Origin: Crambe crambe | Lineage: Eukaryota; Porifera; Demospongiae; Poecilosclerida; Crambeidae | Assembly: GCA_963924555.1 (NCBI GenBank) | Contig: OZ004598.1 | Span: 4,488,501 to 4,552,500 of the forward strand | DNA: 64,000 nt | Reading direction: 5' to 3' | Shown: piece by piece, positions 40,424 through 64,000 of the stretch | Layout: each line of letters starts with the position of its first letter | Position numbering within the stretch: position 1 is the first letter of the stretch | The notes under the pieces: generated by a model | Seen by the model: only the letters and a program-made list of their open reading frames with translations | Told to the model about the DNA's origin: nothing | Databases searched by the model: none | Translations under genes and position numbers: made by a program

Positions 40424-40738
<315 letters not shown>

Positions 40739-41342: not shown

Positions 41343-44300
41343 TTAAAGGCCATTGTCAACTGAATTACTTTCAAATGCATCACTATCCCAGTCTTCATTG
41401 CTGTACTCGCACTCGCTGGGAGGTGGGGAAGTACTGATAGAGGAGGAAGTGCTCAAATGACACTCCCCTAGTTGGTCGAAAAGCTCGCTAAAGGTAGGTC
41501 TGTGCATGGGTTCAAGCGACCAGCACATCTTCATGATTTCATATAGTCTATTCGGACAATCAGATGGTTTCTTCAAGATCTTGTGCCTTCGGATAGACTC
41601 TGTGACTACTTCATTGGAAGTGCCATAATATGGCTGCATGGCAAATGAAAATACCTCCCACATTACGACTCCAAAGGACCAGACATCACTTTCAGTTGTG
41701 AATTTTCCGTAAATAATGGCCTCGGGTGACATCCATCGAACAGGGAGAACGACCTGACCCCTCACCCGGTAGTAATCAGATGAGTACAGGTTTTGGCTCA
41801 TGCCAAAGTCGCCAATCTTGACCATGAGACCAGAGTCAGTCTGAGCAGAGTTGCATGACTTGATCAAACAGTTACGACAGGCCAAGTCACGGTGAATGTG
41901 GTTCTTGGATGCAAGGTAGTCCATCCCAACTGCAATCTGCTTGCAAATGTCAGTGAGTTGGTCCACACTGAGAGAGGGAGGTTCGTCGGACAGCGTGGAT
42001 TCTGTACGAGAGCGTGGACGTCCATCGAAAGGATTCATCAAATGTCGTTGGAGGCTGCTAGCATTGGCACGAAGAAATTGGGCCAGGTCTCCTTTGTTCA
42101 TGTACTCAAAAATGAGGTAGTAAGGCTCAGTGTCCATACATACGCCGTAGATTTTAACAATGTTTTTATGATCAAAGTTAAACATCAGCTTTGCTTCTCG
42201 CACAAAGTTCTCCAGCACTTCACCAGAACTGTCTTCTTTCAATGTCTTAACAGCCACTTCTGTTTCTTTCTCGTTCTCAAATAATCCTTCAGCCTTGGCA
42301 TAGAAAACTATACCGAAATTCCCTTGCCCTAACTGTCGGATGTATTTGATGGATGATTTATCGTAGTGTGGAAAACCTTCAATGGCTTCTTGGATTTTGG
42401 GGGATGTAGGAGAGACCTTGCAGTAGCCGTCGTTCAAGACGTAATTCCAATTTTGTTTCCCAGAGATCTTTATCAGTGTTGGCTCCCCTGATATTACGCT
42501 CTTTTTCTTCCTGTATGTGTAGCACACAACGAGAGCAACTCCTACTGCTAACAGGATCAGAAACAATCCAAAAATGATGAAGAACGTGACTAAACCCACG
42601 ACTGTATCTTTATCACTCTTCACTTCTTCGGTGGTGACAAGACCAACTGGAGTTGATGTTATGTGGGATAGTCGTACTGTACAGAAAATATAAAAGGAAA
42701 CAATGACACGTGCATGCTACAGGATTGGTAAAGGGTCACTTCCTGAAAACAATCAATGTTAGGTAAAGGGTTCTCTTTAAGAAAACCATACCTGTAGAAG
42801 CATCAACACAAGCTGAAATGTTGCAGTACTCCCATTCACGATCGGGAGCTGTAAAACACCATGGCATCGACCCTACTCTTCCAAGGTTGCGACAGTAATT
42901 TTCCTCCGCTTCTGGCCATTCCAGTCCCCAAGGCTGACAGGTCTTCCCTGATCTTGTGTGCGAGATCATACCAGCATAGGATTCACCACTGTCTGTTGAA
43001 TTGTAGCAGAGTTCTCCTACAGAGAATTGTATTCAAAAATGACAGAGGAAACCAGCATAACACCACGTTACAGTGGAACATCCAAAGGTCCTAGGACACT
43101 TCAATCATTATTACCGGACATAATGCATACTCATTATTGAGAGGTTCCAGCCTCTATCTGGCTATCACAGAGCTTACCAGAGAGTGTACCACTCATTGCT
43201 AGATGCAATTGAGCTGGTAAGCACGTGTCACTTTCCTCCATGTCACACGAGGGCTCAATGAATGTAAAGTGACTCTCCTCCATTTGACCCTTCAACCTTC
43301 TGAGAATCTGGTTGGGACAGACGTGGAGCAGCTCCTCCAGCTTGCAGTGATCAGAACACATTCTCAATGGAGCAGTTCCTAGGAGAATATTATAATTATA
43401 ACATGGAAATTTTGTGGTTTGAGTATGTTGTCATACTCTGGCCAAAAACGTCAATTACTTAAAGACTAGCAGCTTATTACTCACCATTTGTGGAGCAGGG
43501 AGGAAGAGTGCTGTGGCACATTAGCTTCCTTAGTCCTTTCTCACAAGTCTCTGGCAGCACCATATTGTGAGTTAGGCGGTGGAAGGTGGCAAACAACCAA
43601 TGTTCAGCACTCAGCTCTCCGCTCTGACCCCAGCGAGTTTCGTGACGGTCGATGTAGATTAGGCTTTGATGGTTGTAACCAGGGAGACCAGTACAAAATT
43701 GTCCTGTATAGCTCTTGCAGATTTCTGAGAGAGAGAGAGAGAGGGGGGGGGGGGTGGGGGGGGGGGGGGGGGGGGGGGGGTGTAGATTCAGATCATTTGA
43801 GAAGATAAAAGGCCCTTACTGCATTGTGGTACATCACAGTATTCCCATCTGGAGCTGGCAACTGAAGTGTAACACCATGGACGTTCTCCTCGACTACCCG
43901 GGTTACGACACTCCCTATCTGCCTCGTAGATTTCTTCAGCTAAGTAGACAAGATGGGGGTGTGGATACTGAGAAATCCACTGCTGACATTTCTTCCCTGT
44001 GACAGTTCTGGATTGCACACCACTGTATGTCTGTCCATCACCATCACTACACCAAGAGCGGGAGCCTGAAAAATGGGGAGACAGTCAGGGAAGTGCTCTA
44101 GGACCAATAAGTCCACTCCAACCCCCAAAGGTCTAAGGCCATACCAAATCTTGGCCAACCAAAATCATCTGGATGATGACCCACAAGATAAATTTGAGTC
44201 TGTGCTGCTATGAAAATCTTACCAGGTTGAAAAATAGACCTGGTAAATTTGATACATTGTTAAGCTAATCAGCAAAAAAGCCTTTTCAGACCTCCCAGCT

Positions 44301-47300
44301 GCCACAAATTCAATCAGGTACTGACAATTAAGCTTTACAAGTGCTTGCCTGGTTTCAAAAAAAAAAAAACTGCTGAGGTTAGTTCACCACAAAACCACCC
44401 AATTAAGATATTGAACCAACCAACAGCTTAGATTGTCCACAATTGGTAAATTACCCATCAGCAATTATAAAGGGTCACCACAACCGACTCTAATAGGCTT
44501 CCAAGGAAACATTCCCCATGTATATCAACACTATCGGATCAGCTAACTCCATTGATTTGCTCAAACAGTTGCTTGAAGCTGATCATACCTGATGGGTGAC
44601 CTTTCAGAGCGACATAAGTACATTCTGGTTCGGCCCCAGCTGGGTGCTGACGAGCATCGCAATTGGACAGCATCATCTCGTATATATCGGGGAACATCTC
44701 AGGAGTGATCGCATCACCACAAGCGCCACCAGGGAGGAAAAAATCACAAGAGCTCTTGCAAATCTGCCTCGACCTCAGAGGCCTATTTTGACAAAATGGA
44801 AAAGTGGCATGACAAAGCATGGCCTTGGCCAAGTCGATGCAGTTCAACAGCTGAATTGAAGACTCGTTACTCAATGTTTCATTCACTTTGAAGTCCTCGA
44901 GAGTGGCAACAGCTCTATTCACTTCAGTCTGGAGTTCGTTATTGCTGTTATTGAAGAGGACATCTCTGGCAGAGAGATATGTAGAGCAAAGCGTATCTCC
45001 AAGTGGTAGGCACACCCTGTGAAGGGAAAGGAAATAGAGAAGCTCTGTAAGTCCCCCAACTCAAGGAGCTGCTAGTTTAATTGTGGTCAGAGCTACTCTC
45101 TGAGAGGCAGATGGCTCTATTACACAAAGAGATTGGAAAGGCTTCTAAGTCCCCACAGGTGGGACTCGGATTTAACTTATTCTTTATTAGTCAGGAAAAC
45201 ACTCATCTTATTAATACTTACATGTCTCCATTGCCTTCATTGGCATTGATCTCTGTGTATAATATAGAATAATGGTAATCATAAAGATGAAAGTATTAAA
45301 TTTGTACTGTGCAGGCAAATGATAGGACCAAGTCTGGATATTTTCATTCATTGATTACACACATACTGTATAGTACAAAAAATTTTTGTGGGTCAAAATT
45401 TTCGTGGATTCCGTGGTTTTGAAAATAATACACGAGAATAAGGTTCACACACCAATATTTGCAAAATCACAAAAATTTTGCACTATATGGTACTAACTAG
45501 TGTAAAGGAGTAAAGCAAAAATAGTAAACTCAAAATAATAAGAAAAATATCCCATACAGTAGATTTTCCAAATTGGTTGAGGAGATCCAGTCATTGTGCT
45601 TGCTTCTTCAGAAGACATGCTGCACTTCACGACTCTACAAGTCAACCAACTTGAAGGTCCTAATTTATGTACTTCGGATGCCTCAACCAACTTGAAGGTC
45701 TCTGGAACACAAGAATATTGGCTGATGCACTCACCTACTTCTACCCTTATTGTCTTGTGTGCAATTGTTAGGAGAGGATTGCCTTCAGCAGGGACATAGG
45801 TATTGGAGGCGATGCAATGATAGTCCCCCACGTCGTTCTCAGTAATGAGTAGGCTTTTCCTCACAAGCGACATCGCCGATGTAATAGGGATACTATGACG
45901 AAGCAGCAAGACCCTGGGGCGAGGGATGCCTGCTCCTTCACACCTCAGCTCCACTACTTGATTGACTGAAACTTTCATGACAACAACTTTCTCAGTAGGA
46001 TAGGTCAGAGATGCTTTCTCTGCATAATCACAGTAACAATAATGATGACAACAACAACAGACTCCCAGACAAGATAATCTCCGAATGATAATTTATATTG
46101 AACTGCCAAAAAATCCTCTAAAGGGAAGAAACTTCTCTAGAGGCTGGTCCCCATGTGTCTGTACAATACTGAAAGTTAAAATGACATATCTAACCTTGTA
46201 GACTGAAGAAGTATAGTGGTGATTTCACAGGATCTCTTGTTGGCGAATTCAGGTTATTGTTACGTTTGTTCCTCACATCAAACTGATAGTAGAAGTTTCT
46301 TGAGAATTGCCTAGCCAAATGAAAAGTATAGTCTGTTGCCCGTCGGTAAGCTGTGTTGGAAAATTCTGTCACAACAGTAGGGCCTTGTGGATTCCTAGAA
46401 AACTCATCGTAGTTTCTGTAGCCCCGTACTCTGACTTCGAATCTTCGGCTGCTGTCGCAATACGGCTCCTGTGATCCTGGAGGGCGGACGGTTGCATCCC
46501 AGTCAAGCAGTATTGTGTTGTTGACCATGCTATAAGTCGCTGAGAAATTTACTGGTTCTGGCAGGAAACACGAAACGCCACCATCCTTCGATGGAGCTAT
46601 GCAGAGTTGGCACAACAAAATGAAGTATTATTACTATGCAAAAAAATAAATCTTACCTTTGAAGTTGATCATCTGAGTTACAGTGCCCTCTCCAATGACT
46701 TCAGAATTGATAGTGCAACGGTACTCTCCGTAAAACAAGTCTGGTTTGCAGTTTCGCTGCTTGAAATCGCATTGGTAGTATTTGAATGGCACCCTAGCTG
46801 TGCTATTTGTCTTCTCCAAACAAGTCAAGTGGCTGTAGTAAGAGAAATAGATGTTCCTCTCTTCATACCAATACGGGTGGCTCAAAGGCAGAAAGTTCCT
46901 GTTTTCGGTTTCTCTTTTCCACTCGACCATAGGGAGGGCTTGAATGGGAAGTCCTGATTCCGTCCTGGCACTGCAGTGAAATGTGCAATAGTTCTCTCCC
47001 ACATCCACCCTTGCTTTCCCATAAGGCCGCACTGCAATAAAAAAATCAATAAGACTCACATTTTAAAAGAAACCAATAAGGTATGCTCATAGCTAGCTAG
47101 CTCACTCCATAACTGATAGCTCTTTTGTGTGGTGAAAAATAATATTTCATTGTGCCATGATTTCAAATTACCCCTCCTGTCCAAGCAGAGGCAGTAATTG
47201 GCACTATTTCATCATTGCCACCACATGCAATCATCACCCCTTAGCAGTTTCCTAAAAAGTGAACTGCAAATAGCCATCATTGCTAGCTAACACAGTAATA

Positions 47301-48341: not shown

Positions 48342-49529
48342 ATGTCTTCCAGGGATGAGGGAGAAAGAAGGAGAACTGGAGAGGGAAGTCACCCCAAGAG
48401 GAATCATATCGATAGCAACCAAGGGCCTACCACCTCTGGTCAGCTTTCAAAAGTTCATGCATTCTGTGTAATGGTGGTTTTATATTCAATAGTATACTAT
48501 TGCTATTGGCATAAATGACTGAATTATTCTTGTTGGCTTCACAATAGTATCACCTAGTCTCACTTTTATTCCTGTGCAGGTGTATCACTTCAAGATGTTG
48601 TACTTGAAGTCATTTGCTACTTGTTAGAAACTAAAATAGTGAGCAAAGAAGAAAAACTTCTCCTGTCGCACTTATCCCTTTCCAACCTCCCCTCCCTCCT
48701 TCACCTTCTTCCTTCCCTCCTTCTCCTCCACCTCCTTCCTTCCCCTCTTTCCACTTTCTAGGCTCTCCAAGATGTTCCCATGACAACCAGTAGCATGGGT
48801 GCAAGGGGTCCTAGTGTCCTTCTAAGTTCCAGTGACCTTCCACTCCCATCATCTCCCCATCAGCTTACCAATTTCAGAAATGCCTACTTGAAGTGCAACG
48901 AGAGAAAAATGGTACATTTGATAAGAATTATAATTGTGGTAATTGCGAGCAAAATGGGCCACTAGGGGGTCAAATGAGGGTCACATATACACTTATATCA
49001 TATTCTAGTTCTGTCCTTTGCGATAAGATGATGTCATTGGCTAAAAGCTTATACTTTGCATTTCCCTAGTAGAGGTCCACCTATGATTTATACAGCCCAA
49101 GGGTACAGTAGTGCAAAGCTTATAAAGGCCCAAGGGTACATGTACAGTACAGTAGTACAGAGCTAAAAATAACTATCAATCACCGAGTTAATCACACACA
49201 TTCAACTGACGTGTGTAGGACCGACTGCATTTTAGCATAACCTGTTATGTGAGAGCTAGTGGAAATCCACCCAATTCCTCGTGGCCCCAGGAAATCTGGA
49301 GCTCTCTTGGGCTCTGTGCACAAGAAGTGGCTGCTGAAATGGCCCTCAACCATCTGATTGAAGGTATATTGTCATGTGATCATATGATATGACCATGTGG
49401 GAGTGTTGTACTTTGACCTCTCCTGTGTGTAGGCTCTAGTGGTGACTCTGGGGATGATCTGTGGTCGTCTTATTATGGGAAGAACACAACAAGTGTAAGA
49501 AGAAGAAAACCTTTTTTTAAATTGCCATG

Positions 49530-49596
<67 letters not shown>

Positions 49597-51680
49597 CAAA
49601 TAGTGTTCTCTTTTTGGAGCGACTCTCTGGATGGTCACAGGATGGAATCCAGTTTCCCCCAGCCATGGCCTCTCGCCTGTTCTCCCTTGCCAAAGAGAAT
49701 TCAGTGGGAAGTGCAGCTATCATCAAAGTGGTACGTTATCATGAGCATAAAATTAATCATAAGTGTGAAATACGTTTTTATTTTATTGAACCACAAAATC
49801 CCACCTTGTCAAGGTGTGATCACACTTATCTACAGCTATGAATGATCCCACATGTGACCCAAATGACCCCATTTCACACCTCTCAGAGTGTAAATTGTGA
49901 CTAGGTGCTGAATTCTCTCTAATATAGTCACCTCTGAGTCACCAGTTCAGAGGTGTAAAATGTACCTTCCTACATTCACAGAAAGTTCAGTTTGCACTTT
50001 CTTGTGTAGATAGAGCCAGAGTTACATTTATGGACCTACCTCATCTTCTTCGTCTCCTTATTCCAGAACTATTTCCGACCAATGGCCAACCAAGAGGATA
50101 CGACCAAATCTTTAGTCTTATTTCTATCCTCTCATAACTCTAATGATAAGAGACACCAACCTAAGCTCCAGGAATGAAATCATAGCACTTTACACTAGCC
50201 ATAGTACTCTCTGTTTTCACCTTCTGCTATTCATAAACTGACCACAAGACAGAAAGAACTCCGGTAAGAGGAACTCCACTTGATAGGGTTGAGGCCTTGA
50301 AGGCAGCCTCACAAATGGAGTCGTGGGTAAGCTTGAACCAAAAACTTTGAGGCAACCATACCACCGAGTACTGTGCTCAGGACAGTGTCTCTACCTACTC
50401 CTCTGGGTCAACTATTCACTCTCCCTAACTTTGTTTAAAAATATCAGAAAAAGGATATGTACCTAGCTTGTTAATTGGGCAGGGTTCTTCCCACAACTGG
50501 TCTGACAGTTGGCTATTTTCAGCCACCACTCATTATAGCTACAGTAGTAACTTGTACTGACGTTTGGTTTTAAACATCAAAAGGGACACCTCCTAGTCTT
50601 ATAAAGTGGGTATGGAAAATAAATTTCGGCCACTGCTCAAGAATTCTGGGCAGAACCCTGAATATTTATAACTGAAATTTCGTACAAACGTTAAATAGAA
50701 CCCATTAACTGTGTGATTTTGGTTTCCAATTCATCTCCCCTTACCCTCTAATGAACCAGTGTGGGTAAGCTGCTGACCAGTGGTACATGTGGTCAGTCTG
50801 TCCTGTGGCTTAATTATGAACTGCAGAGATTGACAAGGTTGAACCTAATCCCATTCTGCTGGTCAAGTTGGCCACTGTTATTTACAATGTGGGCAGCTGG
50901 ACTTGGTTGATTTGTAGGCGGAGTTTTAAGAGGTTTATATTGTTTTATTACTTCTTTTTTTTTTTTTCTCCCTCAATTTTCCTCATTTCCTCTCCCTCTC
51001 CTGCCCTCCCCTTGACAACTCCCCCTCCCCCCTGTGCAGGTGAAAGCAGCTGGTCAAGCCATCAGGTCTACCATAAAGTGAGTCCAACACAAGCACACTA
51101 GATATACACTAAGGGAGTCATGTGGTCCAAAAATCCACCAGTCCATAGACTAGTTGAGTTGCTGGACACTTTTACTATCTTCTGTGGTCTGTGAAAGAAT
51201 TAGTGGTTTTTGTGGTGTCTCCACGCTGTCCCACTACTCCAACCAATGGTGTACACTTAGTTCTGCACTATATATGTACCAGCACTACATAAAAACCCTC
51301 GCTGTAAATAGAATTACAGATATTGTGGGGTAATCCATTACTCAAAATAGTTATTATATGCCTACAGTATGTGTACAGTATACCAGTACAGCATGCAGCA
51401 CTGTAATAACATTATAAGGGGTTATAATTGGATAGTGGTTTGATTTGAACACCTTGTCCCCAATTGAGAAAGTGTGGTGCACTATAGTTTGTAGTCACAG
51501 ATGTTTTCATTTCCTTTGATCTAATTATGAGTGGGTTTGCGAATGGGTTCATTTCATTAATTTGATAATGATGATGTGAGAGGATATGGCAGCTGGGTAT
51601 TTGTTTGTTGTTATTTTTTCTAAGTTTTGGCTCTCTTCACTGGCACTGTGGTTGGTTTGTAGTAGAAACACAGTTGGAAA

Positions 51681-51739
<59 letters not shown>

Positions 51740-52372
51740 CAGCAGCTAAGACCTTGTCATCAGGCCATTAGACGGAACAATTCACTCCTCATTTGTATTC
51801 ATCAGAACACAAAAGATATATTTGAGACTCAGGGAGAGAGAGCCCCTCCCCCCCCTGCCCTCATTGGTCCTCACCCCATTTGAATTTCTGTCTCTGTCTG
51901 GGTGGCCTTGCAAAGAATTGTGCAATAGAAAGCATAACAGGTGTACAGGTGTTATACCCATCTGAATGTTATTTACACCTATCAGCACTCCTTTTATAGG
52001 TACCCATTGGAATAGTACTTGTTCTTACTTCTCCTCTTGATTTTTGTTCCTTTCCCTCAGGTATGATGATCTGCTGGTGTCCCACAGCAAACTTTTGGAT
52101 GGTCTAGAACACCTCTTTGTGAATGTGAGCAAAAACCTAATAAGCCCCAGGGGGATACCTACCACATGGCCTCAGGTGGTTGCTATGGAATGTGCCAGCT
52201 CAGCATAATTGCATGCCACATGCAAAGAACCTACCTCAATGCCCACCCCCAGCCAGACAGATAAGCTCACCTCAAGCACACACCTCAATTGTGAAGAGTG
52301 GCCACAAATCACTGCCTTACTCTGAAAGCTGTGTGGTTGAGAGTTGACTCTCTCTGCACAGGGTTTTTGAAT

Positions 52373-52451
<79 letters not shown>

Positions 52452-54411
52452 GGCCAGTGTTGCTGAACTTGCTTCCCAGGCATTGCTGACAGAGCTGAGA
52501 GAAGCCAGCAATGTAAGGAGATGAATAAGACCAGCAGGATGTATGTATCTAATAAACCTCAACCTCATCCTTTCGACCCTGACCCAGTGGATTAGGATGA
52601 GAAGTCTGACCATCAAGACTAGAGTGATATCACATTAAAGTCACATTAGAGTGATTTCACATTAGAGTCACTGGTATCACATTAAGATTGATGATTGCAG
52701 AGCCAGAGCCAGCTCATTTGCCATAGCTACCATCTGGGGGGTCTGGGGAAAGGCCTCCAGTAAAATTCAATTTCAATTGGGTATGATCTAGGCAATGTCT
52801 TATAAGTCATTGTTATTGCATACACACACGTGTACACACATCACATCACAAAACAAAAAAAACTCTGAATGGTGGTACAGCCATAGCCGTACCAGCCGTA
52901 GCGGTGCCTCCGGCCATGTAGAGTACTCAGTAATGTCATAATTATTAGAGTCACTGGTGTCACATTAGAGTAATGGTACATTAGGTGTCACGTCAGAGAA
53001 ATGTCACATTAGAGTGGTGTCACACATAAGGTGATGTAATCTTCACTCTCCCCTTTTTACCAGGGTGAATATTTCGAGAAAAACTCCTATCTATCAGGCC
53101 TGCTTTCTGTTTCGATGGTGATTGATAAGATCAGCATTCTGCTGCTCAGGGAGAAGAAGTACAGCTGTTTCTTGGAGCTTAGAAACTTTCCTAACGTCTC
53201 CTCCACTGAAGCAAACACTTGCATAGTACGCTCTTACAAAAGGCAGTTTATGAACCATCCTTTTAAATTCTATTTTATTATCTTAGACGCATCTTCAAGA
53301 TGGTTTCCATCGTTGTCAGAAAGTTGTTCATGGTGCCCTCATCAAGATGCTCAAGTCCTCAAATAAGAATAAGTATATGTGTGTACATACAGTGGAAAAA
53401 TTATTTAATTACCCTCTCTCTCTCTGCTGCAGTGTGCTGGCTTGGATGGCTGCTGTAGTCAGTCTGAATGAGATGAGAGCAGGACCTCGCTTCAGGAGAG
53501 GGGAACTAAAAGGAGCATGCTCAGATGGTAAATGCAGTTCACAGAACTAGAAAAATAACCCAACCATTTCAAGGAATTGACTCTCCTTCCACCCTCCCTC
53601 CCTTCCTCCTTTCCTCCCCCTCCCTCCCTTCCTCTCCCTCCCTTCCTCTCCCTCCCTCCTCCCCCTCCCTCCTCCCCCTCCCTCCCTTCCTCTCCCTCCC
53701 TCCTCCCCTCCCTTCCTCTCCCTCCCTCCTCCCCCTTCATTTCCCTAACAGGATTCATGCTGAACTTCTGTGCCGTCCTACTGAGCATGTGCAAACCTTT
53801 CCTATGCAGCCACGCCTCTGGGAAGAAGCTGGACCTAATCAGTCCCGCTTATCCCTCCTCCCCCGTCTGCCGTCTGGATCAGGTCAATGAGACCTGTTTT
53901 GCCCAGGGAGTCATTAGTAAGTTGAAAAAGACCACATCTTTCACATGTAATAAAAAATATTATCAAATTCCAGCTACAGATCGCACTTCTGAAGGCCACA
54001 CCCACTTTCTAGGGGAGCCCCCTCCCTCTAGTGGGAGCAGTGTCTCTGCTGCTAGTCAGTTCAAGTTTGTGACGGAGTGTTTCTTCATCACTCAGCGAGC
54101 GCTGCACGTGGGGCTCCTCCCAGCTGTCAACTCTTTCTCTCGGGCCATTTCCGACTTGGGTAGGCAGCTCAAGTTGTCTCAGGGATCAGGAGGAGAGGGG
54201 GAGAGGAAATCCGAAGTCCTGAAGCAACTCTACGCTGTTAGTTGGCTAGTCTAGGAATTTCAAAATTACTTTTGATGTGCTTATAATTGGAGTAGCTGTA
54301 TCAGTTGAGTTGGCTGTGTTCACTGGTGGATCCTCAGTTTGTCCAGCTTTGCAGCGACTTTTACATCACGCAGGCTATCTGGATCACCAAGCAGATTGAG
54401 AGCTGTCATCA

Positions 54412-54458
<47 letters not shown>

Positions 54459-57400
54459 ACTGCACTCTAATCGTTTATCATACTTCTTTCGAAGAAGTTT
54501 TATCATGAAAAAATCACCTCACTTTTAAGATTTTCTTTTCTTAGGATGGTCTCTCAGAAGAGGAAGTGTTACTAAAGCAGAGACAGCTGCTCTCTGGTCT
54601 GCCAGAGTTCTGTGTCAAGGACATGGCTTCTTGGTTCAAGTTTGTGGTTGCATTTAGACCACAACTGCTGCAAGGACTTCAGGTCTGTTACAGGGAGGAA
54701 ACCTCAGAGAGGAAGGAGAGAGCAACTTTCCTCCCTTAACATAGAAACTAAACTATTGAATGAAAAAGTTGTTTTCTTCTTTAGCTGACTCCCATGGTGG
54801 ACTGTTGTGTGGGTCTCCTGGAGCGTCCAGACCTCCTTCCTAACCCTCTGGCTCAAAGTCGCATAGTCTCCACTTTGCTTGTCTTTGTAGATAGCGATAA
54901 GAGAGGTCAAAGTACACAGTAAGTGAGGGATGTTGAGGTTGTGAACGAAATTTTATTCCTTGTTTGTTTTATTTCTCAGGAGACTGCTAGGGGCTGACAC
55001 TTGGGGGTGAGTCATGTCCAATTTCTTTGATTTGATGCTGACCTCTTTCTCTCCTCTCCTCTAGTGGTATTCTAGGAGAATTATCGGCCATGGTCCAAGG
55101 TAACCCCTCCGTGCGCGACAACCTGGGGCCTGCTCTACTGCACACCTATACAGCTGTCACTGTGTTTGAGGGGCTGGACGTGGACAAGGAGGATTTTGAC
55201 AAATATGCTACCAGGCAGGTCTATTATCATCATCCCAAATTGCATGCGTTATCTAGTCATTTCTAACCATTATGCACTAATGAAGCCTAGTTACTCTTAC
55301 CATGTGAAAGTTTTAGTGGGATAAAAAATTTTTCATGGATGATTTTTGCATTTCAAACAAAAATTTTGCCCCACAAAAAATTCATGCTATACAGTATCAC
55401 AACGCTTGTCCTCTGACCAATGGCTACCAGGTATTAGTGTCAAATCTCCCACTTATTGATTTAGCTCTGAGCTGAAAGAGAAATGAGGTTACAATACAAT
55501 TACATAACTAGCACCTGTCACATCTGTGCAATATCTAATATGCAAAGACCAAGAAGTCGCAAGACTGCTTAATCTGGAGCCAAAAAAAAAAAGAAAAAAA
55601 AAAGACAGAGCTGAGGTCAGCCAGCCACAATGAAATTGGCCAATTATATTTGATTGGGCAGAAAGTGTTCTGTGGTGTACTACTATACCCCCTTTGCTCT
55701 GGCTTGCTGGGCACAACATTGCAACTATTGGGTGTTTAAACCTCATTAAGTTATATGATTCTGTGTCTGAATGGCGCAGTGCTTGGTTACTTTGTGGTTA
55801 CTGTATTTGCGTGCAGTTTTGGTCTTCTTTTATGGATGCTGTGTAAATTTAATCTAATAGATATGAAGTGGCGCAGTTACTTCATCGACTGTGGGCTAGA
55901 CCAGACTGCAGGAGCTCCATTCTCAGAGAGTGTGGGCAGAAAAGGTTTCAGGTGCAAATCTAGCTACCTTTTTTTTTTTTCTTTTTTTTTTTTTCAGTGC
56001 TCGGAAGTAACAGCTGCTGATACGAAACAAAAACCCCCATTTTATTAATCATCTGGTCAAATTCCTATTCAACTATGTAGTTGACAGGGTGAAAATCTTA
56101 CCCAAGAAATTTGTGTTTCTGCAGTCTTTCCTAGGAGCTGTTTTTGACACACTTTTGTACCAGCTGAACGATGCTCTCTCAAGGCTGGTCAATGTCAGGA
56201 ACTGTGAGACAGCTCAAGACAGTAAGTTCTTGTCCAAAAGTATATCCATCAATACTAGCATCATAGTCTTTGATAATCCATTCTAGGTGGGAAATGGGAG
56301 TCCTTGCCACACACAGAGAGAATGGAAAAGGAGAATTTTCTCTCTGGTGAGCAGCGTGCTTCAAAAGGGTTTATGACACAGGCCAACAAGCAGCTGGAAC
56401 TGCTGGTGGTGATGTCCGACGCTGAACCTGTGGCACGTTGCCTCTCCATACCACCCCTTGGAAGGAGAACAGCAGCTGCTGTTAGTGGTAGTAGGATTCC
56501 CTTGTGTCTCATTAAAGAGTGTTGTCATAAAAGGGTGTAAGGTTAGGTGTAAGACTACTGTTCTCACAAAAGGGTAAAGGGTGTTGTAAGACTACAGTTC
56601 TCACAAAAGGGTGTTCTCATTAAGGGGGTGTAAGGTTAATGTTCTGGTAAGACTAGAAATTTTGTACCTGCTTTATGAGATTCTCCCTATGGGTATGAGC
56701 TACTTGTTTCTCTCCCTACAGCTTCTTGGTTTCTTGAACACACTTTGTGGTCCAAAGGCTTCAAACTTAAAAGTCAAGGACATGGACAAATATGCATTCA
56801 ATCCTTCAAATATCGTCGTCCAAATTGTGTCCATCATGGTCCGAGTCTGGATCCAAAACCAGAAGAGTACTGATGGTGAGAGCTTTGCCACATCTCTGGC
56901 TAGCCACCCTGACTTCAGCCAAACCACCATGACCAAGTGCTCCTCTGTGCTCCAGAAGACAGTCATGATGGACTCAGAATTACTGGGAAACTTTGCCAGC
57001 TTCCTGGAGCAGGTAAATTATATTCAGGGCCTAGGGGATATGTGGGAGGTAAAGGGTGTCCAGCCTAGAATTGGAGAGGGGATCTGTTTTTGAATAAATG
57101 GCAAATGACATTATATTTAAGAGATCTAAATAATACTCACCCTTAGATTAGCATGTGGTGATTACAATGTTTCTAGTGATGTACTAAAGTAGTTGGTGTA
57201 CATACTAAAGTGTGCATTATTTAGACCTCTAAAATATGGTTTGACCATTGGAAGTGTTGAAGCTAGAATAAGAATTCAGGAATTGTGGTATTTCAACAAC
57301 AGCAGAAAACCTGTGATTGGCTGTCACAATGATTGTGTGCGTACATCGTGTTTGTGAAATCCCAAACAAGAGGGCAAGTGTACTCTAATATTGGTAGTGG

Positions 57401-58894
57401 AAGAGCCATTCAGTCTTGCTGAAAATATGAAGTGTTAGATGACTGAATAAGCTACCAGTGATAAATTGATTTCATTTTGAAGCCAATTCCATTGATGTTT
57501 GAATGATCCAACAACCTGTTTACTGTCTTTAAAGTGTGGTTACAGGTGTGAGCATTAGAGGAAATCAGTTGTGTGATCTTGCTGAAGTCAGCTTGTACAG
57601 GTGTGAACAATAGAGTTAGTTGTGTGACCTTGAAAGTACAAAGACAGATCCTGGTATAACCAGTTGGTGGTTTTTTTTGTTTCTCCCCGATGACCATAAT
57701 TAGTAAGATTTATGTTCCAATGTCATATAAGGTCAACAAGATGCAAATTGAAGATTCTTCTGCATCTGCCATCCAATCACCAAAGAGTGATGGGGAAGAT
57801 TCCAGCGGTGCCGATTGGCAAAAGGTGGCTGACTCCTCACTGGTGGTTGAAGATGAACTTAAAGACATCTACGTAGCTGCTCTGGAGGAGAGCAAGTTTG
57901 ACAGTGCAGAATTAGCAGAGGTCCACACCTTGATAGAGAAAGCTCAAGTGACCCTTGACCCCAGGTCCCCCATGGTCAGTGCAGTCCTCAGGGACATGAA
58001 GCAACTCCAGGAGTCGAACCTCGTCCATCCTGACTCTGCAATTTTTGTTCGACAAGTGAGGAAATTTTTTCATTAAACCCCCTCCCTGTTGACTTTACCT
58101 GTCTTCATTGCTGACGACCCTTTACCCACTTATTCACTTTCAAGATTCTATGATACCCACTACTCCTTGTCTACATTATGTCTAGGACGAGGACCATCTG
58201 GATTTGGTCCGTGTAATGATAACAGGACCTACAGGAACTCCATACAGTAGGGGATGTTTTGTATTTGACATCAATTACCCTGCCTCTTTCCCCAACAACC
58301 CTCCCCTTGTCATCATGATCACCACAGGTGGTGGTACTGTCAGGTATGTAGTTAAATAGTGGTAGGTGTTCTATATCTAGAGGAATGCAAGCTGTATTAC
58401 ATGTATGGTACTGTCAGATCATAGGGGTAGATATTCTGTACCTTAATGTGGATCCTTGTGTTGGAACACTAGGGGTACGTATTCTCTTAATATGTATTCT
58501 TGGGTGGGTGATAAGAACACTATAGGGATGGGTATTAATGTGGGTCCTTGGGTGGGGGTAGGTGTTCTCTTAATATGTATTCTTGGGTGGGTGATAGGAG
58601 GTAGGTATTCTATACTTTAATGGGAGTCCTTGGGTGGGTGATTCTGGAAGCTACACAGACTTGTTATCACAGGTTTAATCCCAACCTGTATGCGGATGGA
58701 AAGGTGTGTCTGAGTCTCCTGGGGACATGGCATGGAGGTGACGCCACAGAAAAGTGGGACCCCGCCCACTCCAATCTGCAGCAGGTTCTGCTGTCCATTC
58801 AGGGCATGATATTGATCCCAGACCCCATGTTCAATGAACCCGGTTATGAGGCCATCAAGGGAACTGAGGAAGGAGATGTGAGGTTTTTTTTGTT

Positions 58895-58925
<31 letters not shown>

Positions 58926-59448
58926 GAATGAGTTTAACTGAGAGTGAGGGGTACAGTGTGTACCATATAAAGATTATAATATATATCAACATCATGGGAA
59001 TGAGAGTGAAAGAGGAAGGGGACAGTTTTGAGACCGGAGGTACATATCAGTATGCCTTATTAAAATGTGAACATCATGTCATGTGATCTTGTGCAGGCAC
59101 GGAGCAGGGAGTATAATGCAGACATTCAGGTGTACACCATTCGCTACTCCATGGTGGAACAACTCAGAAATCCCCCACAAGGTTGTAGTCATAATCATTA
59201 CAATCATAGTAACTGCAATGTTGAATCACTCCAAAATTTCTCACCCAACTCACTTGTTTACAATGATTCTTTCTTACCATCATCTCTGCACAGGTTTCAA
59301 AGACGCTATTCAAGTCCACTTCACAGTTCAACGAGAGGCCATTTTGAAGCAGTGTTCCCAGTGGCTAAAGGATGCCATTTCCCCTCAGCACGAACAGAAG
59401 CTGCGCAAGGCCATTGATGAACTCAGAGCAGAGCTGGATAAAATCTAG
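48342..59448 (+). CDS. UBE4B-like E4 core fused to a BIRC6-type ubiquitin-conjugating (E2) domain
   Basis: A gene of about 25 exons starting [20 protein letters not shown]. The N-terminal third (48.3-53 kb) is poorly conserved. From 53.3 kb it follows UBE4[95 protein letters not shown] and [13 protein letters not shown], the Ufd2/E4 core. UBE4B would next have a U-box. Here FLEQ (57012) splices in phase to [13 protein letters not shown] (about 57731), an acidic linker, then a UBC domain: [40 protein letters not shown] (catalytic Cys 58707-58709), [13 protein letters not shown], ending [14 protein letters not shown]. That E2 resembles BIRC6/Apollon, including the segment just before it. No BIR domain and no U-box are visible. 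The E4 part would hold substrate chains and the E2 supply ubiquitin in cis. Alternative: two adjacent genes split at 57.0-57.7 kb. Confidence 0.8.
49531..49593. repeat. (CT)n microsatellite at an E4-E2 gene acceptor
   Basis: About 31 CT units ending directly in the ctcag acceptor of the exon [13 protein letters not shown]. Confidence 0.95.
51685..51735. repeat. (GA)n microsatellite
   Basis: About 25 GA units in an E4-E2 gene intron, not next to a recognised exon. Confidence 0.95.
52378..52441. repeat. (CT)n microsatellite at an E4-E2 gene acceptor
   Basis: About 32 CT units followed by acacacacag, the acceptor of exon [20 protein letters not shown]. Confidence 0.95.
52617..53035. repeat. 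Degenerate minisatellite, GTCACATTAGAGTGAT units
   Basis: Irregular copies of TCACATTAGAGTGATTTCAC at 52617-52690 and again at 52940-53035 within one intron, separated by unique DNA. Confidence 0.7.
53585..53735. repeat. Pyrimidine-rich (CCCTCCTT)n tract at an acceptor
   Basis: About 150 bp of C/T with TCCCTCC units, just upstream of the exon [11 protein letters not shown] (acceptor aacag near 53750). Proline/Ser frames over it are artefacts. Confidence 0.85.
54415..54455. repeat. (GA)n microsatellite starting inside a splice donor
   Basis: The exon ends CATCAG and the intron begins gtgagagagaga, so the donor's first bases run into the repeat. Confidence 0.9.
55312..55397. repeat. AAATTTTGTGGG-type AT-rich element
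   Basis: AAAAATTTTTCATGGATG and the inverse TTTTGCCCCACAAAAAATTC, ending CATGCTATACAGTA. A member of the family at 29567, 45369 and 61830. Confidence 0.5.
57119..57236. mobile_element. MITE-like element with AGAGRTCTAAATAAT ends
   Basis: Begins AGAGATCTAAATAATACTCA and ends GTGCATTATTTAGACCTCT, an inverted pair about 118 bp apart, inside the intron at the E4/E2 junction. The same ends occur at 8338-8570. Confidence 0.65.
58900..58926. repeat. Poly-T then poly-G run
   Basis: T10 followed by about 22 G just inside an intron of the UBC-encoding part (donor GGAGAT|gtgagg). Confidence 0.9.
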
Positions 59449-59520
59449 CTTCATTTCTCAATACATTTTTTTTTGTTTTCTATATTCAGTGATTGTTTAA
59501 TTTTTATGAATACTGCTCAG

Positions 59521-62500
59521 TCAAGTTCCTTTACTTCTGGATGCTTTGAATTTGGAGACCTTTTTTGGTTTTTCCTGGAATGAATGAACCCTGGTTAGCG
59601 GTAGGTAGACTAATGTAGGGTGGCTGTGTGTGAACTCAATAGTGGGGTATTTTATGTTTGGTTGGAGTTCATTATTATGAACTTGTTGGATGTACATGTG
59701 AACTCACTAATGGGGTGTGTTGGGTTCATATGAACTGTCAATGGGTTGGATGTACACATGAACTCACTAATGGGGTATGTTGGACTTGCTAATAGGTTGG
59801 ATGTACATATGAACTCACTAATGGGGTATGTTGAATGGGCTAATTGGTGGGCACTGTATGATGTATGTGAACTCACAAATGCAGAAGTGGTCATAGGAGT
59901 TGTATGTTCAATGACTTGTCCAGAAAATGGCTATAATGATTGTATATAATTTATATATTCTCAAAGATGAACCATGACTTACCAATGGAGGTCTCTTAGA
60001 GGTGACTTTCACATGACTTTCCTCTTTCTCACCAGTCGATGGTTGTTCCTGATAGTTCACCAATTGAGGGTCCCATCTCACACCTTTGACACCCCTCTCA
60101 ACCCCTGCTCCACTGTCAACACCCACCCTGGTGTCACTCCCCTCTTTATCAGCCCTCTCCTCTTCCTTGGCAGGATGATAAAACTTGTGAAAGATGTCAG
60201 CAGGGCTGGAGAAGAGAGGTGGTTCCTTCTCTTCATCCTTACCTTCTGACCTTTCACTTTCCTACAGTGTGCAAGTCAACAGTTATGATACAGAGGCATC
60301 CCATGATAATATATTTACTCCCCAATTACCTTAAAAGTTTGAGGGTACCAATTTTAGATGTTTGCAGTGAAGTAAGGACTCTTACCTCCATGTCAGGTGA
60401 CCTTTCCCTTGCACCTGTACCAATCAAGCTGCAGTGTTTCACCACTATTCTCAATGGACCACCATCATCACTCGCTCTAGCCGCACTCTCTGAAATCTGA
60501 AATTTCTTCTCCAACTTGATATCGCTTGCCTTGTTCTTCCTTTCATCTTCTTTATCTTCCTCCTCCTCTTCTTCATCTTCCCACCATCTTCTCCCACTCC
60601 CTTCTTCCATCTCCTCCCTCCCTGGCCTCCACCCACTCTCTCCCTCCTCCTCTTCCTCCCTCCACCCCCGTTTCTCCCTCTCTTCTTCTTCTCTCTGCTT
60701 CTCTTCAGCAAGATAAACCTCCTCCTTTCTCTCCAACTCATCCAGTCTCTGCCATAACTCTTTATCTGTGATCTCTTGCTGATCAGCAAAGGCTATTTTA
60801 TAGCAAAAGATATGGCCATTATGCAGGGTCTTCCCCAAGGGCAAGACCATGATCACCATAAAAGGAGAGAAGCTACCCACTGCTTAATTACACTGACTCC
60901 ATCAGGGGGAAGAGCCCACTATGCTTCAAAATGCCTGGGGAGAACCCTGTCATTCCCTCACATACTTACACACATAACACACCAGGCTTATCAGCAGGAG
61001 CAGCTCTCTCATGTGGGGGGTCTTTAGGAGATTTGGGGAAAGCCGCCCGGGGAGGAGGCACTTTTCCGTGTTTGGGGTTTCTAGCCTTCCAAACTGAAAA
61101 AATAATGGTTCAAACAAGACACATTATTACACAAAGAAGTATCATGTTTCAGTTTTTGCATTGAGGGTTCCATCCCACCATTCATACCTACCTCTTTTCC
61201 CTTGGTTTCCTGTAATGTAAGAGGAATCCTCCTTACCACCACACTCCTCTTTAATCTCCACCGCTTTCTCATGTTCCTATAAGTGATCAAACACCTCATT
61301 ATCCCCAAGCACAGGGTAAGTCTAAACCGCTACAAGCTCCTTCCCTCGCCCTTACTTACCTGAAACCATGGCAACCATACAAAGGTGATTATAATACCTG
61401 CTTATTGCATAACATCTGCCAAAGCCTCAAAAATTTAATCAAACAGAAAAGTCATTTTAGTTAATTAATAGTGCTATAAAGGAGTTTTATAGTTCTATAA
61501 ACCACACCCCTATAAACCACACCCCTATAAACAACGCCCCTACATAACAATTGACTATTAAAGGAACTGTTTGGCCTTTCAGTGAGAAGTAGACTAATTT
61601 TTGTATACAAGGGTATGGTTTATGAAAGTCATGTTACTTTAACTGCATACCAATTTAGAAGCAACTGGGTGGCTAAAAATCCATTCTCAGGTCAATAATC
61701 AGAGTTGATTTGATTACAATCAAAGAGAAATGTCTATTAACGATGATGACTAAAGGTATTTCAATCCAGGGGGTTGACTAGCACAGGATAGCGAACCAAC
61801 ACTCATGAGTTAGTATATGAAATAATTTTGGTCAGCAAATGGACAATTTTTGTGGTTTTGAAAAAAATACACAAAAACATGCTCTGCACTTCACAAAAAT
61901 TTTACCCCACAAAATTTCACACTACACAGGTGGTTGGAAATGAGCAGCTGCCATAATCATTGCTACACGTACATGCTGTGTTGTCCTGATCTCCTCAGTA
62001 AAGGCCAGCCTTGCTTCCCACTCCTCCAGCTGCTTCCTCTCCTCTCCCAACATTTTGTTCACATCTACAAGACGAAGAATTTATGATACAAAATGGCTAC
62101 ACCAGACCACAAACACACAGTGTATTCTTCGTCCTATCATCTCCATGGCCTGCTTCACCGTTCTTTTAGCAAACCAGTTGTCGCCTAGCAACACCATCAC
62201 TTCATTTGTGTGGTAGATCTGACCAGGCATGAACCCGAATCCCCCAAAAGGAACCTTTTCAAATAGAAGGTACACAAAACGTACCATGTATTCTCTGGGC
62301 ATGCCAGGCTATTTAGCTAACCATGACATCATGTGTAAGCTGCTCAGGCAGTGTTGCCAGTCTTGCTTGCAAGGCTTCATAATCACCTTTGAACCTTTGC
62401 CTGCATAATGTTAGTGAACTTCCAATAATGGCTACTTCCTTAGATTCTTACCATTTCTTTATATGCTCTCTGCCTAAATTCAGTGCCTGCGAATTTGTGG

Positions 62501-62579
62501 CGAAACTTTGAATATATTCAGCTCTTTTATTTACTACAAAATACCTTAGTATGCTCTTCCTGTAGTCTGGTATAACCAT
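59521..62579 (-). CDS. URI1: Unconventional prefoldin RPB5 interactor (URI1)
   Basis: Prefoldin-like scaffold of the R2TP/prefoldin-like complex that binds RPB5 and helps assemble RNA polymerases. Exon 1 starts MVIPDYRKSILRYFVVNKRA. Next are YEALQARLATLPEQLTHDVM and the family hallmark VPFGGFGFMPGQIYHTNEV then VLLGDNWFAKRTVKQAME. Coiled segments follow (EERKQLEEWEARLAFTEE, then DKELWQRLDELERKEE), then a long Glu/Arg-rich low-complexity region (60.5-60.7 kb), and SSPADIFHKFYHPAKEE. I place the last exon at 59574-59521: the donor CCATTG|GTAAGT near 59985 joins an acceptor cattccag to EKPKKVSKFKASRSKGT and stop, matching the short basic C-terminus of this family. Read-through gives a hydrophobic, unrelated tail. 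It ends tail to tail with the E4-E2 gene, 72 bp apart. Its last intron contains a minisatellite. Confidence 0.92.
59680..59890. repeat. Minisatellite of about 40-60 bp units
   Basis: Repeated GGTTGGATGTACATGTGAAC and ACTCACTAATGGGGTATGTT blocks in the last URI1 intron. The reading frames on both strands here are artefacts. Confidence 0.85.
61496..61545. repeat. 15-bp tandem repeat (ATAAACCACACCCCT)
   Basis: Three copies in a URI1 intron, the last with two changes. Confidence 0.85.
61830..61930. repeat. AAATTTTGTGGG-type AT-rich element
   Basis: ATTTTTGTGGTTTTGAAAAA and the inverse CACAAAAATTTTACCCCAC, ending AATTTCACACTACACAGG. Same family as 45369, in a URI1 intron. Confidence 0.5.
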
Positions 62580-62677
62580 GTTGCAGAGACATCAAGTTAA
62601 GTGGTGCGCATTATTTAGATTCCTACCCACGTGGGTAGAGTCTCTTCTTCTTCAGTGCATGCAGTACAGCTTCCGAA
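62580..62677. promoter_or_regulatory. 98-bp divergent promoter, URI1 and MRPL3
   Basis: Contains a perfect 16-bp palindrome CTACCCACGTGGGTAG at 62623-62638 with a central CACGTG E-box. On its left is GTGCGCATTATTTAGATTC, one end of the MITE-like family seen at 57119. No TATA box. Confidence 0.55.
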
Positions 62678-64000
62678 ATGGCGCTCTTGAGGACATTAGC
62701 TCGAACTATGATAGAACCAAGTTCCCTGAAGAGTCTAGAGACTTTACTAAAGGCGTCAGTACCCTGGAGTCGTGGCCAGAGGACTGTCTACTCCTCAACC
62801 AGCACCGCCACAGACCCAAGTGGTCGCCATCATGACGTAGCAACTGAAGTGGTAGACTCTGAAGCAGTTTCACCACCACTGGTGGATGGTCAGGACCCAG
62901 GAATGGTAGTTTTGAAAAAGAAAGAATGGACAAACCTTTCTCGACGAACAGGCATTTTGGCTATCAAGCTTGGAATGACACAGCTGTGGGAAAAGAATGG
63001 AGTCTCCGTAGCAACTACAGTTTTGCAGGTAGTTCCATCAATCATTGAAATTCAATCTTGTTTTACTTGATTATTTCAGGTTATTGATAATCAAGTGGTT
63101 GCTATGAGAACGAAGGACAAAGAGGGGTACTATGCCATCCAAGTTGGAGCCATAAACCATCCCAAGCCAAAAAATGTGAGTTGGGAGAGAGTGAGGTAAT
63201 TTGCATATTGCTGCCTCAATCTAAGAAAAAACATCAGAGATAAGTGTGGTGCCCCACCCTACTGGAGTGGTCATTTATCAATAACGTGTGTGTCCATGTG
63301 CATCCAATGCTCGCTTTTATCATGTGTGTACTTCCAGTCCAGTATAGATTAATGCTCGGCAAAGAGCATCTTGGTCACACCTAGCCCGCAGCAGTACTGT
63401 CTTTTCTTATCTAATTAGACACCCAGTGTGTCTATGAAGCTTTTTATCCAATCAAGACAATGCTTACTTTGTGTGCATGTGACACAAACAGAATTATTAT
63501 GTATTTTGTCCATTACTACCAACGTCTGTCCAAATGCCATTCTTTTAAATTCTGAATGAGAAGTTGGCAGAAGTGCTATCTGTCATATGGACTGAAAGGA
63601 TCCACTTTTGTGACTGGCATATCGTATCAGGACTTTATTGTTGTGGCGCTTTTATAGTCACATGATTTGTTATAGCTGCGTCCAAAGTCTGTTATGAAGG
63701 TATGGAGAGTAAATTTGTGCTGGCAATAGCTTGGGCCCAACTATTAATGTCTACTTAGGGCAATCCATACTCCTATAATCTGAATAAAGCTGCAGTATGT
63801 GGTTGGCACTTCATGGGCTTAGTACCTTGTTTGCTATGCCTTTCAGATGTTGAAGCCGGTATTGGGACAATTTGAGAAAGCTGGAGTCCCTCCAAAACGT
63901 AAACTGATGGAATTTAGAGTCACTGAAGATGCCTTGCTGCCCGTAGGCTTGGAACTCTCAGCTGCACACTTTGTCCCCGGTCAGCTTGTGGATGTATGTT
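62678..64000 (+). CDS. MRPL3: Mitochondrial ribosomal protein uL3m (partial, runs off the window)
   Basis: Large-subunit protein of the mitoribosome. Exon 1 starts [20 protein letters not shown], basic and without acids at first, a likely matrix-targeting sequence, and ends in the L3 core start [20 protein letters not shown]. Exon 2 (from 63079) reads [20 protein letters not shown]. Exon 3 (from about 63847) reads [20 protein letters not shown] to [13 protein letters not shown] at the window edge. These match MRPL3 in order and spacing. The glycine-rich L3 signature that follows lies outside the window. Confidence 0.9.

Follow-up and report, generated by a model that had tools for sequence, protein, structure and literature searches.

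A Ufd2/UBE4-type core without a detectable U-box and a BIRC6-type ubiquitin-conjugating domain directly downstream in the sponge Crambe crambe: a possible single-chain E4-E2 enzyme

Introduction

Can the E2-recruiting module of an E4 ubiquitin ligase be exchanged for an E2 itself? The U-box of Ufd2/UBE4 proteins normally recruits the partner E2. In the window, by which we mean the whole 64,000-nucleotide stretch of Crambe crambe DNA that we analyzed (G000:C21:4488501-4552500), an E2 reading frame begins 0.7 kb after an E4 core on the same strand, and an earlier reading of the sequence alone had proposed that the two are joined in one chain, with the E2 in the place of the U-box.

The family has been described before. 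In passages of Marin (2010; PMC3087547), the U-box lies at the C terminus of Ufd2-related proteins, and UBE4A and UBE4B are present in most animals, sponges included. Passages of a study of yeast Ufd2 (PMC5303827) report that two N-terminal loops of the protein, far removed from the U-box, bind K29-linked chains, that the E2 suited to both Ufd4 and Ufd2 is Ubc4, and that the U-box is essential for the function of yeast Ufd2.

Materials and methods

The genome searched comprises 143 Mb in 119 contigs, and its genes and introns are of animal type. Exons were built by hand from open reading frames and splice signals. Splice-site matrices were derived from 27 donors and 28 acceptors of these hand-made models, which had been chosen by hand for agreeing phases, so the matrices are based on few sites and are in part circular. 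Leave-one-out scoring was used for the modelled sites, and the full matrix for candidate and decoy sites.

Results

The E4-like core

Nineteen exons on the + strand (50827-57012) join in consistent phases into a model of 749 aa, and its sole Pfam match at E-values up to 1 is Ufd2P_core (PF10408), which scores 291.5 bits (E = 1.7e-86; cut-off 20.4) and spans positions 14-625 of the 628 in the profile. The only relatives of the model in the PDB at E-values up to 0.01 are Ufd2 entries (four distinct sequences, best E = 8.8e-18). The call of a Ufd2 core, made earlier from the sequence, is thus borne out by the profile search, and the exon model bears out the claim that the E4-like exons run to the residues FLEQ at position 57012 on an open phase-0 donor. 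This last core exon (56722-57012, + strand) ends at CAG/GTAAAT, where the slash marks the end of the exon, and the donor scores 7.93. The model includes a GC-AG intron (55215-55860), the donor of which (exon end 55214) was chosen because it restores the frame and a UBE4-like reading, and a 48-nt intron (56077-56124) that is itself open. Further upstream, six candidate N-terminal exons with agreeing phases (48342-49730, + strand; 192 aa) gave no Pfam match; they are not linked to the core, and at least one exon between 49730 and 50827 is absent from the model.

When the whole genome was searched with the Ufd2P_core profile, the best 14 candidates yielded 13 exon matches, which fall in three loci, namely on C18, on C9, and in the window. 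The gene on C18 is UBE4B-like and that on C9 is UBE4A-like, both names being given by resemblance, and both genes carry a U-box. Since these two loci already account for UBE4B and UBE4A, the E4 gene of the window is, to judge by its sequence, a third paralog, in which no U-box can be detected, and not UBE4B, and we rejected the UBE4B label that the sequence-only reading had given to it. Like Ufd2, UBE4A, and UBE4B, the window gene has the Ufd2P core across nearly the entire profile, but it differs from them in having no detectable U-box, whereas the UBE4A-like and UBE4B-like loci of the same genome keep theirs. By per-exon scores, its core is also further from the Pfam profile than are the cores on C9 and C18.

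The search for a U-box

A whole-genome search with the U-box profile (PF04564) gave 10 matches from its best 18 candidates. The best of these belongs to the UBE4B-like gene (C18) and the third to the UBE4A-like gene (C9); in the two genes, the U-box starts 222 bp (C18) and 278 bp (C9) after the last match to the core. None of the 10 matches is on C21, the contig that contains the window. Within the window, neither tblastn with the two U-boxes of the genome itself (best E = 0.17 among the best 20 matches) nor hmmsearch with a profile made from these two sequences (best E = 0.9) found anything convincing, and none of the matches listed by either search falls in the 57.0-57.7 kb gap between the two halves of the locus. 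The reading frames of the gap, inspected by eye, contain nothing U-box-like. On this scope (the best 18 candidates for the contig, and the window itself), the earlier claim that the U-box is absent holds.

The E2 domain

The first E2 exon (57690-58055, + strand) encodes an acidic linker and the start of the UBC domain, and it contains in-frame ATGs at 57690, 57720, and 57741. Four further exons on the + strand (58186-58343, 58673-58877, 59097-59181, and 59294-59448, with the stop at 59448) complete a BIRC6-type UBC, and when read from 57741 (57741-58055 plus the four further exons) they join into 305 aa. The E2 model matches UQ_con (PF00179) at 77.9 bits, against a cut-off of 27, whilst UEV, the inactive relative of E2s, reaches 18.7 bits and stays below its own cut-off of 27. 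In a search of PDB sequences, among the best 60 of 278 matched sequences, BIRC6 comes first at 234 bits, followed by UBE2O (143 bits) and UBE2Z (110 bits). The motif GKVCLS of the window E2 aligns with GKVCLS of BIRC6, and we take the cysteine of GKVC to be the catalytic (active-site) residue. By sequence similarity, the UBC is nearest to that of BIRC6; the description of it as a complete UBC of the BIRC6 type was therefore correct, and of BIRC6 and UBE2O, with which it was to be compared, it is closer to the former (234 versus 143 bits).

The likeness to each of the three relatives has its limits. BIRC6 (BRUCE/Apollon), an E2/E3 hybrid, has the closest UBC, but no BIR or other extra Pfam domain is present in the modelled proteins of the window; for BIR, three modelled proteins were scanned and gave no Pfam match at E-values up to 1. 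UBE2O, an E3-independent E2, combines E2 and ligase in one chain, which is the behavior proposed here, but its UBC is a weaker match than that of BIRC6. To our knowledge, neither BIRC6 nor UBE2O has a Ufd2 core. UBE2Z, of the class with an N-terminal extension, matches more weakly still, and UBE2Z-like genes exist separately in this genome, on C11.

Elsewhere in the genome, the first E2 exon has a single match, which is itself. The UBC of the window is 52% identical to a UBC on C13, the sequences of which we take to be the BIRC6-like genes proper to this genome, just as we take those on C11 to be its UBE2Z-like genes; the positions of introns, read by eye, differ between the window UBC and the C13 UBC. 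There are two very similar BIRC6-like UBC regions on C13, ~4 kb apart (C13:5764981-5768157 and C13:5768897-5772073), and the pair reflects either a tandem duplication of recent date or an artefact of the assembly. The two UBE2Z-like sequences are on opposite strands, ~3 kb apart (C11:5283264-5286452 and C11:5286181-5289369).

The junction between the two halves

Between the donor and the last in-frame ATG of the E2 exon lie 728 bp (57013-57740, + strand) that would be either intron or intergenic DNA. The donor at 57013 is strong: of the 3737 GTs elsewhere in the window, only 1.07% reach its score, which makes onward splicing of the last core exon probable. The acceptor side is weaker. The E2 frame can be entered in phase 0 through three acceptors only, at 57708, 57732, and 57741. 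All three are weak AAG sites, of which the best (57732) scores -0.94. Twenty-four of the 28 modelled acceptors score higher, and the 28 consist of 19 CAG and 9 TAG sites with no AAG. In mitigation, the frame of the UBE4A-like gene on C9 suggests that an AAG acceptor is used in the linker of that gene. The strongest acceptors of the gap are those at 57601 (8.06) and 57546 (6.99), either of which would bring the E4 frame to a stop after one codon. An intron from the donor at 57013 to the acceptor at 57732 would measure 719 bp and exceed 26 of the 27 modelled introns in length.

The sequence-only reading had taken the shared phase of the two halves as support for a join. As a control, we asked how often other ATGs of the window have an equally good in-frame acceptor upstream, and found that 353 of 1072 do. 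A matching phase should therefore arise by chance in roughly a third of cases, and we do not count it as evidence, let alone proof, of splicing.

A poly(A) signal (AATAAA) at 57093 starts on the last base of the stop codon that the E4 frame meets when it is read through the donor. After the E2 stop, the interval 59440-60100 contains neither AATAAA nor ATTAAA; an AATACA lies at 59460. With 28 copies of AATAAA on the + strand of the window, evidence from poly(A) signals is weak.

Several other joins were considered and rejected. Additional in-frame micro-exons between 57012 and 57741 were sought by eye in the lists of sites, and nothing convincing was seen. Joins from the donor at 57042 (phase 2; score 4.6) to the TAG acceptor at 57704 (0.96), or from the donor at 57056 (phase 1; -0.1) to the CAG acceptor at 57664 (0.76), would both bypass the stronger donor at 57013. 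Skipping to the acceptor at 58186 would keep the frame, but by our reasoning the start of the UBC would be lost. A retrocopy carrying the join was also looked for, and no spliced copy is present among the 13 matches of the E2 search or the one match of the first exon.

The gap contains, by eye, two similar tandem stretches (57520-57640, + strand), each with a strong acceptor-like CAG followed by GTGTGA.

Neighboring genes

Exons of a receptor tyrosine kinase lie at 41343-46092 on the - strand; its kinase domain (313 bits) is preceded by two kringles, which score 47.9 and 68.8 bits, and by Fz and Ig matches that are weak and below their cut-offs. We take the layout to be ROR/MuSK-like. An open frame at 40424-40738 (+ strand) gives histone-fold families in Pfam, with PF00125 below its cut-off, and presumably encodes histone H4. 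On the other side of the locus, we take the gene at 59908-62591 (- strand) to be of the URI/prefoldin type and that at 62639-63070 (+ strand) to encode mitochondrial ribosomal protein L3, both by eye; the two pieces of these genes that were scanned gave no Pfam match.

Discussion

The locus holds a Ufd2 core in which no U-box was found and a UBC with its cysteine, on the same strand and in a compatible frame. We tentatively favor, at somewhat under an even chance, the reading that these belong to a single-chain E4-E2 protein in which a BIRC6-class UBC has taken the place of the U-box, and which exists beside the UBE4A-like, UBE4B-like, and BIRC6-like genes of the sponge. What speaks for it is the context, in that the very domain lacking here is the one that recruits an E2, and an E2 comes immediately after. 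E2 exons match at 48 places in the genome, in 28-31 clusters depending on the merging distance, and as E2 loci are so few, the expected probability that a given gene is followed within 1 kb by an E2 on its own strand is ~1e-4, a figure that ignores the fact that the locus was picked for its oddity. The earlier proposal that an E2 replaced the U-box in one chain is supported as regards the core, the UBC, and the missing U-box; the replacement itself is possible, on grounds of position and of the kind of domain that is absent, and as regards the join, there is a strong donor and no good in-frame acceptor. Weak in-frame acceptors, strong ones that would end the E4 frame, the in-frame ATGs of the E2 exon itself, the AATAAA at 57093 with none found after the E2, and the long intron all count against a fusion.

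We infer the splice join, as well as the binding of ubiquitin by the core, its charging, and its transfer. A third Ufd2/UBE4 paralog would have lost its C-terminal U-box, and the downstream BIRC6-class E2 frame would have become the C-terminal part of the protein, through splicing of the exon that ends at 57012 to an exon at ~57732. The Ufd2 solenoid might then hold ubiquitin that is already on a substrate, while the built-in UBC would accept ubiquitin from E1 on the GKVC cysteine and pass it on, so that no U-box would be needed to recruit a free E2. With a UBC tethered in this manner, the protein would resemble BIRC6 and UBE2O, which are hybrid enzymes.

The local sequence is equally compatible with two separate genes or with a shared mRNA. 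It is quite possible, again at less than an even chance and a shade below the fusion, that the locus consists of two neighbors, a Ufd2 paralog without a U-box and a free-standing BIRC6-class E2 that starts at one of the ATGs between 57690 and 57741, and that the two are perhaps co-regulated or share an mRNA with two frames. The core would then be a non-catalytic binder of ubiquitin chains or a competitor of the UBE4A-like and UBE4B-like proteins, and the E2 would be a free enzyme. The same features of the junction are accommodated readily by this arrangement, namely weak in-frame acceptors, strong ones that lead to an immediate stop, the AATAAA at 57093, and in-frame ATGs in the E2 exon, and by our own reading other neighbors in the window are also closely spaced. 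It is harder to reconcile with the strength of the donor at 57013, and with the coincidence that an E2-recruiting domain is missing just where an E2 follows; a spliced terminal exon would, moreover, find no AATAAA or ATTAAA in 57100-57741, although this is a weak argument given the 28 occurrences of AATAAA on the + strand.

Alternatively, the E4 paralog may be decaying, having lost its U-box as a gene no longer needed, beside an E2 neighbor that is unrelated to it. The absent U-box, the more divergent core, and the exon that is missing, or not placed, between 49730 and 50827 would suit such a history. We consider it improbable, because nineteen exons join without a stop into a core of 291.5 bits, even if one of the junctions is the GC-AG intron chosen for its frame. 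Least probable by our estimate, and very unlikely, is a U-box exon that does exist but was missed because it has diverged too far, is split, or dropped out of the assembly: the genome search scored only its best 18 candidates, and short split exons can escape it, but the window is without any N, tblastn, the two-sequence profile, and inspection by eye gave nothing in the gap, and the same genome search readily found the U-box exons of the two other E4 genes.

For the single-chain E4-E2, collections of prokaryote and virus contigs were searched with the predicted fusion protein and with an alignment of two UBC sequences; no relative with the same order was confirmed, a result that says nothing on sponges at large. 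Among the titles and abstract openings of the open-licence papers listed, we found no mention of a natural E4-E2 fusion; passages of one paper (PMC11354881) deal with ubiquitin fusions and E2 classes, and not with an E4-E2 pair.

If the two halves are not fused, a near-complete Ufd2 core that has been kept without a U-box would be unusual in itself, since the U-box is reported, in passages of PMC5303827, to be essential for yeast Ufd2. If they are fused, it would follow that an E2 of the type recruited by the U-box can replace that domain in an E4, and the sponge would possess an enzyme for chain extension to which E1 and ubiquitin might suffice. Such an enzyme would help to address the question of how ubiquitin is transferred by Ufd2, in which the substrate site is distant from the U-box.
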